64,000 bases of DNA, from contig NZ_KB910924.1 of NCBI RefSeq assembly GCF_000383235.1, positions 1-64,000 on the forward strand, read 5' to 3'. Of this stretch, positions 54,682-64,000 are shown piece by piece. Each line of letters starts with the position of its first letter. Within the stretch, counting starts at the first letter, position 1. Position numbers and translations under genes: made by a program. The DNA is from Bacillus sp. 123MFChir2. Lineage in GTDB: Bacteria; Bacillota; Bacilli; Bacillales; Bacillaceae_G. A model generated the notes under the pieces. That model was not told where the DNA came from. It made no database searches and saw only the letters and a program-made list of their open reading frames with translations.

Positions 54682-54870
54682 TTAATTCATATACTTGAAT
54701 TTTTCTACAACTACAGGTTGGAGTTGTTTCCCTTCTAGCGATTCAACAATTGTATCTTGTAATAATTCCATTCGCGCTACCATAGAATTGGGCTTATTAT
54801 GCGGTGAATCTTGCCCAAATGGCACAAAATAAATATTTTTTGTTGCCATAAGGCGCATTAGGTTTACACC
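54682..54870 (-). pseudogene. dpaB: dpaB (spoVFB) 3' fragment, cut by the prophage
   Basis: The last 62 codons of dipicolinate synthase subunit B: MRLMATKNIYFVPFGQDSPH ... QLQPVVVEKFKYMN. The full protein is about 200 residues. Homology ends abruptly at GVNL; upstream on the minus strand the frame continues VQYYC and then meets a stop at 54898-54900. The N-terminal two-thirds and dpaA are expected beyond the right end of the prophage. On precise excision the gene would be whole. Position directly before asd-dapG-dapA is that of the native operon. Confidence 0.88.
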
Positions 54871-54912
54871 AACTTGGTAGTAACAAAATATATTTTTTTA
54901 TTTCCTTCTATT
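54861..54912. repeat. Attachment-site-like repeat at the dpaB/prophage junction
   Basis: TTTACACCAACTTGG then an A/T arm with AAAATATATTTTTTT and TTCCTTCTAT. A similar run is at 55541-55592. The dpaB codons for GVNL lie in its left part, so the crossover core is probably within about 54860-54877. Confidence 0.5.
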
Positions 54913-54946
54913 ATATAGAAAACAGTGTAAAAAAATAAACACAAAA

Positions 54947-54979
54947 GAAACAAGCCCTTCTCACACGAGAGGGCTTGTT
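54947..54979. terminator. Terminator at the prophage end
   Basis: Stem AAACAAGCCCTCTC-like (one bulge) pairing with GAGAGGGCTTGTTT; T-runs on both sides. Confidence 0.7.
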
Positions 54980-61428: not shown

Positions 61429-61535
61429 AGTTTTCCTCCTATGTAATAATTTGTTAGACATAACATTTAAAATAATAACATATTAACTATATATTGTAAT
61501 TTATTATTTTAAATAATTATCAAAATAAAAAAGCC

Positions 61536-61706
61536 TTACTTATTAGCAGACTTTGGTTTCAACTTCTCATTTTCTTCTCTTAACTTTTGGGTTTCCGCTT
61601 CTAGTTCGATTACGCGAGCCAGATAAATATTTTTCTCTTGGGTTGCTGCGTTTAACTGTTCTTCCACCACTTTTGCGTACATTTCTGTGTTTGCTGTTAT
61701 TTTCAC
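61536..61706 (-). CDS. Small coiled-coil phage protein (GTG start), overlaps tail gene
   Basis: 56 residues: KITANTEMYAKVVEEQL ... RVIELEAETQKLREENEKLK, with leucine heptads over about residues 29-50. GTG at 61706 follows AAAAGGTG at 7 bases. It overlaps the tail frame by 140 bases in another phase. The coding evidence for this frame is stronger than for the basic tail of the other frame. Confidence 0.7.
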   Translation of the reverse strand: MKITANTEMYAKVVEEQLNAATQEKNIYLARVIELEAETQKLREENEKLKPKSANK

Positions 61707-64000
61707 TATTAATCACCTTTTCTATTTGATTTAGTCTATCGTCTGTTTTTTCTACATATTGTTGAAAACCTTTTATCGTGACTGATAACGAACCATATAG
61801 ATTGACACCGTTACGTTGCTCATCAGTAAATGGTAATGGGCAATCATCAACCATAAAACCATAATGCTTTGGAATATCTTTCAATGTGTACGGAACTTGT
61901 CCAGTTTCTTTTTTTGTCCGCATTTCATATAAAGTAGCTACATCGCTTTTGAAGTAGTATTCTTTAATTTGTAAATCTAAAACATCTTGTAAAGCATTAA
62001 ACTGTAAATCTTTTATATATGTTTTTAGTTTCCGTTGAGACGTAGTTTGAAATTCTGTTGCCACTACACCATTATGACTTGATCCATTGCCGGATTTAAT
62101 TTGTAATTTTCCATTCCAATGGTCGCTACAATCAAGCATTGTTTTATATAGAGTTAAATGTGATGCGTTAGACTCGGTAACCCATTCATTCTGATAGCGA
62201 CCATTAACATTATAAAAATGAATTGCATCTGATGTTATATCTGCAACTTCACCTCTTTCGGGGTTATCAAGTTGTAATGACGGTCTCCACCATCTAGCCT
62301 CATCATAAGATTTTGCGGTGATAGACTTATTTTGACCTTTATCATTTATAATAAGTGATCCAGCTCCATATGTTGCGCTATCATTACCATTGTTAAGATT
62401 CAATCCCCATGCTGCAATACTGAGAGAATTTGCTTCAGTTCCGTTTTCTTTATAACCTTTACTATAAAAACTTCCCTTTTCTAAACCTGTAACAACTTTC
62501 TTTGACCACTGATTCCATTGAGCTGGAGTTTGAACTCCTTGTGTAAAAACTTTACCATTTGACATCTCTGAAAAGTTATTACTATCCTTCGGGTCTTTCG
62601 CTCTAATCGTAATACCTTCGAGCAATTTACCAGCAATTGATTCCGCTGTAACCGCGCCAATTAGATTAATACGCTTTGCTTCAATTTGAATCTTTTCTGC
62701 CGTTTGGTTAATACTTGAGATGAGATTACCGACTCTAACTGTGCTAAGAATACTTTTTTCAGTAACATCAATACGTGATTCCATCGTTTTTACATAAGCA
62801 CTTGTGGCATACTTACCATCAGCTTCCACTCGTGTGTATACTTCTGTCTTTTTAGCTGAAAGGCTAATTCCTTCTTTTGTAGCGGCAATCTCACGATCGA
62901 TTTGCTCTGTTTTCTTATTGTAATCAGCTGTCGCTACCTTTTCTGCAATCTGTCCTAATAATTCATCTCTACCGACAACGTCCATTGCATTCTCTGTAAA
63001 CTCAGATGGCTTCATTCCACGCTGTAACATCATTTTAGACGCCCAAAGTTTACCGTTTCTTACTACATAGAACCTAGCATCAACAAGCGCTGTACCCGCT
63101 GGTGCTTTTGCTGTTCCTGATGCGAATTTCCAAACGTTATTTTCTAGAGGAATATCAAAACCAGGACTAGAGATTCTAGCTCCAGAAGCATTATAAAATT
63201 CTATTTCTATCCTTACACCCTTGTCTATTTTGCTTTTATCATCAGTCATAAACCAACCAGATATGACAAAATCTTCACCGGCTACAGCTTTAACTTTTCC
63301 ACTAATGCCACCATGCCAATTATCAGCAGTTAACCCAATTTGGTCTGTTTTAATGCTGTAAGAACCGTTATACATAACATTTGTGTCACGTACAACATTA
63401 GGATGTAAGGACCAATGCTTTGAATCTGTTTTTAATAATGAATTTCTAATTAAGTTATCCATTCCTATACTGCTAACATAGTTACCCACTTCTGTGATTG
63501 TTACCTTTGCTTTTATCGCTTCTGCTTGTGCTTCCAGTGTAGATTTCGCTTCTTTTATTTGCTTTCCTTGCGCTGTTTGTGTTTCCTGGATACTGCTAAC
63601 ACTTTGTTTAATACCTTCTGCATTTTTCTCTACAGTAGTAACACGTTGCTCAAACTTATTTTGATTACTTTCAACCTTTGTTATGTTTTCTTTTATGCCC
63701 TCCACACTCTTTACGATCTCGGTTGTTTTCTTGGTGAACTCTTCATTAGACATTTGATCCTCTGACGGAGTACGATACCCTGTCGCTATATTGCCTTCTT
63801 CTAATTGCATGTTTCTTATTTTAATGTTTGTGTTTTTCGAAGGGATCCACCCTCCACCTACACCAAGAACCGAATTGTCATAAAAATCTTGAGTGATATT
63901 ATCTGGCATTGTAAAGGTAACTGAAGCTTTAGTCCACTTACCAGGAATAGTGTTAGGCGTACGCATTATACGTTTAGCTGTAACGTCATTGTCATTTGAT
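61567..64000 (-). CDS. Phage minor structural/tail-spike protein, 5' partial
   Basis: At least 810 codons visible; the frame is open to the window's right edge, so the N-terminus is outside. A carbohydrate-binding-like module (LGVGGGWIPSKNTNIKIRNMQLEEGNIATGYR) is followed by a long coiled coil (about 60-160 after 63966), a second jelly-roll-like module, and a C-terminal domain (LDLQIKEYYFKSDV ... HYGFMVDDCP) of the type seen in tail fibre chaperone or intramolecular-cleavage regions. The last ~42 residues are very basic and out of phase with the overlapping small gene, suggesting a frameshift near 61718-61721. Confidence 0.85.
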   Translation of the reverse strand, partial: SNDNDVTAKRIMRTPNTIPGKWTKASVTFTMPDNITQDFYDNSVLGVGGGWIPSKNTNIKIRNMQLEEGNIATGYRTPSEDQMSNEEFTKKTTEIVKSVEGIKENITKVESNQNKFEQRVTTVEKNAEGIKQSVSSIQETQTAQGKQIKEAKSTLEAQAEAIKAKVTITEVGNYVSSIGMDNLIRNSLLKTDSKHWSLHPNVVRDTNVMYNGSYSIKTDQIGLTADNWHGGISGKVKAVAGEDFVISGWFMTDDKSKIDKGVRIEIEFYNASGARISSPGFDIPLENNVWKFASGTAKAPAGTALVDARFYVVRNGKLWASKMMLQRGMKPSEFTENAMDVVGRDELLGQIAEKVATADYNKKTEQIDREIAATKEGISLSAKKTEVYTRVEADGKYATSAYVKTMESRIDVTEKSILSTVRVGNLISSINQTAEKIQIEAKRINLIGAVTAESIAGKLLEGITIRAKDPKDSNNFSEMSNGKVFTQGVQTPAQWNQWSKKVVTGLEKGSFYSKGYKENGTEANSLSIAAWGLNLNNGNDSATYGAGSLIINDKGQNKSITAKSYDEARWWRPSLQLDNPERGEVADITSDAIHFYNVNGRYQNEWVTESNASHLTLYKTMLDCSDHWNGKLQIKSGNGSSHNGVVATEFQTTSQRKLKTYIKDLQFNALQDVLDLQIKEYYFKSDVATLYEMRTKKETGQVPYTLKDIPKHYGFMVDDCPLPFTDEQRNGVNLYGSLSVTIKGFQQYVEKTDDRLNQIEKVINSENNSKHRNVRKSGGRTVKRSNPREKYLSGSRNRTRSGNPKVKRRK

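Follow-up and report, generated by a model that had tools for sequence, protein, structure and literature searches.

A prophage splitting dpaB in Bacillus sp. 123MFChir2, a probable sporulation intervening element with relatives in dpaB and sigK

In the first 64,000 bp of contig NZ_KB910924.1 of Bacillus sp. 123MFChir2 (the window, meaning the whole stretch of DNA analysed), the gene dpaB (spoVFB) is split by a prophage. dpaB is a sporulation gene of the mother cell, and dipicolinate synthase is needed for heat-resistant spores. Judged from sequence, the prophage is likely to be a sporulation intervening element that is removed in the mother cell, rejoining dpaB (probability roughly 0.8). Its large serine integrase would have inserted it into dpaB at codons 141-143, and the gene would stay split during growth and in the cell lineage leading to the spore genome. 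During sporulation, a small phage protein, a candidate recombination directionality factor (RDF), would turn the integrase to the excision direction; the left and right attachment sites (attL and attR) would then be recombined in the mother cell, which dies anyway, and dpaB would be rejoined in frame so that dipicolinate could be made. We infer excision, its cell type and timing, the function of the small protein, and that the window host behaves like its relatives.

What is more novel was found beyond the window, namely reduced cassettes in dpaB and a link to sigK. We consider it fairly probable that a single lineage, made up of a serine integrase and a small excision factor, has specialised in spore genes of the mother cell, with neighbouring branches in dpaB and sigK. 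In dpaB it would occur as whole phages and as cassettes of 2.8-3.0 kb (integrase, excision factor and one more gene). The cassettes would be those of a Bacillaceae family in which 11 of 19 genomes have a single, split dpaB; to make dipicolinate, these would rely on a phage recombination module that has become domesticated, nature's counterpart to the minimal SPbeta built in the laboratory. In two further genomes, dpaB would have been split at a different codon by another, distant lineage of serine integrase. With a phage in dpaB, dipicolinate and hence the heat resistance of spores would depend on developmental DNA excision, and vfbin, the element known from spoVFB of Bacillus weihenstephanensis, would not be a single curiosity.

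Split dpaB and the attachment sites of the prophage

On the minus strand of the window, asd is followed by the last part of dpaB and then by phage DNA up to the window's end. asd (53486..54535, minus strand), the host gene downstream of dpaB, is an uninterrupted open frame of 349 aa that was aligned with those of relatives. The dpaB 3' part (54682..54858, minus strand) has 58 codons from an internal ATG and resembles dpaB up to about codon 141/142; this frame matched positions 142-195 of 196 in NCBIfam NF006161 (E 5.5e-24) and positions 137-187 of 187 in TIGR02852 (E 2.7e-22), the latter being the family end only. Counted back from the stop, the piece has 61 residues starting VNLM, which with the stop codon bears out the preliminary description, made from the window alone, that the last 62 codons of dpaB remain upstream of asd. 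That description also had the frame broken exactly at the phage DNA, and the stretch it covers begins at 54682. The likeness to dpaB does end at codons 141/142, where phage DNA begins, but the frame stays open for about 10 more non-dpaB codons before a stop; likewise, phage genes do follow the dpaB piece up to 64000, but the phage DNA begins at a 5-base attachment core (54857-54861), placing the prophage start at about 54861.

In all 80 named relatives examined (the best 80 of 575), dpaB is uninterrupted past the split point. Chance is hardly to be considered, because dpaB continues without a gap in 80/80; in one of them, L021, the 5' part of dpaB was matched at residues 106-142 only. The coding region of dpaB in the window is split at codons 141-143.

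A recombinase at the other end of the prophage, expected in the preliminary description, was found by extension. A protein search with the tail gene cut by the window's end gave four loci. Locus L081 (IMG/VR record IMGVR_UViG_2521172627_000001, 38,444 bp, labelled G001 and read as loci L081, L085 and L086) is 100% identical to window positions 59526-64000, and because of this identity over the 4475-bp overlap it was taken as the same prophage. The record ends exactly at the stop codon of a 515-aa large serine integrase with Resolvase (PF00239), Recombinase (PF07508) and zinc ribbon (PF13408) domains and a match to the integrases of PHROG 95 (E 7e-112), so that the element carries its own recombinase. 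By extension, the integrase end would lie near window coordinate 97969 and the element would be about 43 kb long.

The integrase was present in 41 IMG/VR loci, 38 of them at 90-100% identity (one of the 38 being G001 itself). The six of these 38 that run past the integrase stop all have the same attR arm before the core, and L110 ends one base short. L109 has an integrase of 93% identity, and directly after it come attR, dpaB codons 1-142, dpaA and a further small gene. Since the record identical to the window ends in the integrase, and since the L109 integrase adjoins attR and the dpaB 5' part, the prophage lies in dpaB. The dpaB 5' part expected beyond the integrase has thus been located in a relative.

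Comparison of the window and L109 junctions places attL at 54857..54873, with the core ATTAG at 54857-54861 followed by a phage arm that is the inverted repeat (read by eye) of the attR arm. Inverted-repeat arms are usual for serine integrases. The attL pattern had one match, in L133, a contig of phage-like genes with no dpaB seen among its listed frames, and this match was taken as chance. Integrases of the phages collection were at most 54% identical among the 20 listed of 582 records, with none of the 582 at 60% or above, and those of plasmids at most 52% identical among the 15 matches listed.

Reduced dpaB cassettes in the Ectobacillus family

A quick tree of asd placed the window host, presumably a strain of the B. 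cereus group, beside genomes of the Ectobacillus antri family (support 98). A search of 19 genomes of this family with the integrase gave 12 matches, of which 11 were 56-58% identical and the remaining one 38%. Each of the 11 integrases adjoins the 5' half of dpaB, and in 10 of them the same stretch also has the 3' half, on the far side; that of G012 is at the end of another contig. Between the halves are a gene for a 178-aa protein, a short open frame (about 60 residues) and the integrase gene, the last two arranged back to back. In nine genomes the halves are 2770-3034 bp apart. They are 9222 bp apart in G018, whose 9.2-kb cassette (L174, 283-9505) has gained at least one PRD-domain gene. 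The split is at the same dpaB codons as in the phage, with a different arm sequence that is again an inverted repeat as judged by eye, and only in these cassettes were both attachment ends seen within one genome.

Searching with the dpaB model revealed two pieces only in 11 of the 19 genomes and a full-length gene in the other eight, G025 having a further weak match; none of the 11 cassette genomes has a full-length dpaB. Nine of these 11 were included in the asd tree. Two close relatives of the cassette genomes, G016 (L202) and G014 (L203), have an intact dpaB, the cassette having either never been present or been cleanly lost.

Selection was estimated from ratios of nonsynonymous to synonymous substitution (dN/dS), calculated by the Nei-Gojobori method over pairs of cassette genomes that are not independent. 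For the dpaB 5' half (11 genomes, 55 pairs) the mean dN was 0.005, the mean dS 0.47 and the median ratio 0.015, and for the 3' half (10 genomes, 45 pairs; G012 without its 3' half) the values were 0.020, 0.37 and 0.049, respectively. The unsplit neighbours gave medians of 0.056 (dpaA, 11 genomes) and 0.047 (asd, nine genomes), and the cassette genes 0.086 (integrase), 0.25 (small protein) and 0.22 (178-aa protein). Both halves of dpaB in the cassette genomes are thus under strong purifying selection. Because the 57-codon tail is kept like an intact gene, together with a conserved integrase and attachment arms, dpaB appears to be put together in some cell, and rejoining of the two halves is probably the best explanation. 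Because the cassettes are reduced and yet both halves of the only dpaB are under purifying selection, excision seems to matter to the host. The cassettes would also allow a direct test of how such an element is tamed, as little beyond the recombination module seems to have been kept while both gene halves are still selected.

It is scarcely credible that the insertion in the window is dead, with the split dpaB decaying and a second dpaB or another route supplying dipicolinate in the window host. Such a second copy could lie outside the 64-kb window, but the 62 codons that remain form an open frame that resembles the family up to its end, and no second full-length dpaB was found in any of the 11 cassette genomes.

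dpaB has also been split in another way. Of 397 genomes drawn from the order, 388 had a match to the dpaB model at E 0.001, 379 of them above the model cut-off. Among the matches listed, 14 odd-looking genomes were chosen by eye and rechecked, so that the count of other split genes is a lower bound: at least two, G085 and G125, have dpaB split near codon 85-90, by 21 kb and 11 kb, respectively. Each has a serine integrase of 505-507 aa beside the 5' half; the two are 65% identical to each other and about 33% identical to the phage integrase over 320-340 residues, and the genes between the halves do not look phage-like by eye, no model search having been made. Since G085 and G125 are split elsewhere and have distant serine integrases, dpaB has been entered at least twice independently. 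In G057, also among the rechecked genomes, dpaB looks frameshifted.

sigK integrases and a candidate excision factor

sigK is required in late sporulation. Of 299 genomes drawn from the order, 26 matched the integrase at E 1e-80 or better, and in 14 of these the identity was at least 49%; seven of the 14 are cassette genomes and seven are others. In five of the latter seven, sigK is in two pieces around the integrase, with none full-length above the model cut-off, the pieces being about 40 kb (G095), 19 kb (G069), 80 kb (G119), 24 kb (G179) and 49 kb (G206) apart; longer matches to the sigK model below the cut-off in these five genomes were read as the related SigE. The two sigK pieces of G100 are irregularly ordered. 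In G181, an intact sigK is on one of contigs C22 and C24, and an integrase beside a sigK 5' part, recognised by its likeness to L185, is on the other, which is 3.9 kb long; excised and integrated DNA were possibly both present in one preparation. NCBIfam models confirmed a truncated SigK adjoining the integrase in L182, L183 (with another frame between), L185 and L186, and a sigK 3' part in L128 and L129 was recognised by eye from the translation, with no model match.

A tree of 41 integrases, including 12 of the 38 from dpaB phages, put these 12 and the 11 cassette rows in one clade (99/97). A neighbouring clade (98/99) held seven sigK rows, L130 and L181, the last being that of G119 and hence in sigK. 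The tree does not settle the order at the fork joining the dpaB clade, the sigK clade, L187 (G100) and a plasmid row (L209), of which the last two are on long branches. Beyond the integrase of L130 there is an inverted repeat, CAGATAACCTC..GAGGTTATCTG, which is perhaps an unintegrated phage attachment site (attP). In G110 (contig C12, 194288-211495), an intact sigK and an extra sigK 3' part flank a small RDF-like gene, with no integrase match at E 1e-80 in that genome; a skin-type element may have decayed or been re-inserted here.

The phages, the cassettes and the sigK elements have one small protein in common, whose core is about 57 residues long. It was found in 40 of the 41 IMG/VR integrase loci, L130 having only a chance-level match. 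Within the 299-genome draw, it was present in 13 of 14 genomes with the integrase and in one of 285 without it (p 1e-20), a count that leaves out one of 15 matches (G154, E 0.008) and would become 2/285 with it; when the seven cassette genomes were removed, the figures were 6/7 and 1/285 (p 6e-11). This test is not independent of the discovery, because six of the 13 genomes with both genes (G018, G022, G069, G095, G179 and G206) had contributed rows to the search profile; G119 and G110 are among the genomes found without rows in the profile. The small gene and the integrase gene were on one contig and on opposite strands in 13/13 genome pairs and in all 36 IMG/VR loci with both genes; 44 of 80 IMG/VR loci end before any integrase can be read. 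In the prophages G001 and L109, the small gene comes after a small repressor-like one and is oriented away from both the main repressor and the integrase.

This co-conservation makes the small protein a candidate RDF. In kind it resembles known RDFs as described in the excerpts available of the respective papers, namely SprB (58 aa; PMC4191935), CD1234 (72 aa; PMC5025042) and GirX (42 aa; PMC5595907), and RDFs are stated in one of these excerpts to share no significant sequence similarity (PMC5025042). No match to the small protein was found in plasmids, and in phages the matches were at chance level only. In the cassettes, the octamer CATAYAAT stands 21 nt before the small-gene core in 11/11 related genomes, with GGTTAGTCC at a constant 14 nt further upstream as read by eye. 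An octamer of this type occurred anywhere in 1-5% of shuffled sequences, and the arrangement hints at a cassette promoter, although its -35 part does not fit what we take to be the sigma-E consensus. In the phages, the stretch matching this region may code for an N-terminal tail, HxH..RGD (by eye), that is common to the dpaB and sigK phages. The related integrases and the same small protein family at both genes suggest that skin-type and dpaB elements share one developmental switch, the key part of which, the candidate excision factor, is small enough to be assayed in a tube.

Several observations weigh against excision in the mother cell as the explanation. Regarding the sites, 1) only the 3' part of dpaB comes from the window strain, the 5' part being seen in the relative L109 and in cassette genomes, and the core and inverted arms were likewise read as attL in the window and as attR in relatives, i.e. 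in different strains, and 2) an exact 20-base attP pattern had no matches in the viral_contigs collection, where no excised form was found. Regarding the switch, 3) the small protein showed no BLAST likeness to SprB and no local alignment with it at E 100 or better, 4) it had no solid match in Pfam, PHROG or NCBIfam and no meaningful profile match in PDB, and 5) no sporulation promoter could be assigned to the integrase or the small protein in the prophage. Furthermore, 6) the intact dpaB of G016, which lies among the cassette genomes in the asd tree, means that the cassette is not indispensable in that group, and 7) the element has the look of an intact phage and so may leave mainly by ordinary induction.

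The last point leads to the possibility that the prophage is an ordinary temperate phage using dpaB as its bacterial attachment site by chance, with dipicolinate-poor spores as the outcome or with dpaB rejoined only in an induced minority of cells. Genes for packaging, head, tail, lysis and replication are all kept, and the phages look like an exchanging population: upstream of the integrase all 38 loci aligned differ in sequence, apart from a short and apparently conserved block immediately ahead of the integrase start, and there is also diversity on the repressor side of the small gene. We nevertheless regard this as unlikely, given that nine of the 11 cassette genomes keep only about 2.8-3.0 kb, comprising the recombination module and one more gene, while the halves of their only dpaB are strongly selected, and that related integrases are also in sigK.

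Still another way to account for the selected halves is that they are made as separate polypeptides that work together, with no excision needed. Open frames of 60-121 aa run through the dpaB 3' halves of the cassette genomes, which makes separate translation conceivable and counts against a need for rejoining, and the 5' half ends in a short open tail. Inverted-repeat attachment arms at both ends and a cassette integrase under purifying selection (0.086) would not be expected if no recombination took place, and this explanation appears very improbable. Removal at sporulation, with rejoining of dpaB, is thus the reading we prefer: relatives of the prophage occupy dpaB and a second spore gene elsewhere, so that it is probably removed at sporulation. 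The intervening-element reading of the preliminary description is supported by the geometry of the attachment sites, by the cassettes in the only dpaB of 11 genomes with both halves selected, and by the integrases in sigK.

Known elements and gene content of the prophage

The first description of vfbin is reportedly that of Abe et al. in 2013. According to the excerpts available, it is a phage-related element in spoVFB (dpaB) of B. weihenstephanensis KBAB4 (PMC4191935, PMC10747680, PMC5595907, PMC6957869) whose recombinase is expressed at sporulation (PMC5595907). By description, it is like the prophage in being phage-related, in the same gene and, as reported, excised under developmental control; it is described as defective for phage particles, whereas the prophage of the window keeps genes of all main modules looked for. 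The latter is best filed with the sporulation intervening elements, close in kind to vfbin.

The other known elements, also compared by their descriptions in excerpts, differ in their target genes. The skin element in sigK of B. subtilis and of Clostridioides difficile (for the latter, PMC5025042) is likewise removed from a mother-cell gene by a serine recombinase, and integrases of the clade neighbouring ours are in sigK; the recombinase CD1231 and the 72-aa RDF CD1234 of C. difficile were compared by description. SPbeta in spsM is a complete phage with a serine integrase and a small RDF, to which the seemingly complete prophage, its serine integrase and its candidate RDF would correspond, and its excision in sporulation needs only the integrase SprA and the 58-aa SprB (PMC4191935), so that the laboratory minimal SPbeta (sprA and sprB) parallels the natural dpaB cassettes. 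In contrast, SprA-type integrases are only 28-29% identical to that of the prophage, and the candidate RDF of the prophage is not SprB-like. The gin element in gerE of B. cereus ATCC 10987 (PMC5595907) also interrupts a mother-cell gene and has an integrase, GirC, and a small RDF, GirX (42 aa), likened by description to the integrase and the candidate RDF here; it is a non-phage element of 28.6 kb, compared with 2.8-3.0 kb for the dpaB cassettes. In the literature searched, which takes in few subscription journals, neither the dpaB cassettes nor the small protein was found described, nor the occurrence of related recombinases at both dpaB and sigK.

The window appears to hold the left end of a seemingly complete siphovirus-type prophage, as judged from its genes and those of G001, which carries terminase, portal, head protease, major head, tape measure, distal tail and replicative helicase genes. 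All prophage genes in the window are on the minus strand. Just inside attL is a remnant, a C-terminal fragment of the Leukocidin/hemolysin family (55005..55310; PF07968 positions 159-256/256, E 9.8e-16), and near attL is a cargo gene for an M6-type peptidase with an F5/8 type C domain (55620..57590; PF05547, E 3e-12; PF00754, E 1.7e-26). These are followed by an endolysin with GH25 and SH3 domains (58507..59526; PF01183, E 1.4e-21), a holin (59526..59927; PHROG 199, E 5.6e-23) and a second cargo gene for a beta-propeller protein with PQQ-like repeats (60001..61461; PF13360, E 7.9e-19), of which L082 has a 57% identical protein. The tail or minor structural protein gene (61567..64000) is cut by the window end; its full-length copy in L081 (1487 aa) matched PHROG 1775 (E 1.6e-234).

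Five cargo proteins gave one weak match only against PADLOC (E 0.0097), no near DNA match to the window piece was found in the phages collection, and the dpaB 3' part gave only two distant loci in viral_contigs. Loci L083, L084 and L087-L089 were only aligned to the window, and L188-L193 were left unused. Between the repressor and the integrase of the prophage (L086, 4266-6888) are genes for an NA37 nucleoid-type protein and a 528-aa protein, and the same slot was viewed in L090-L127.

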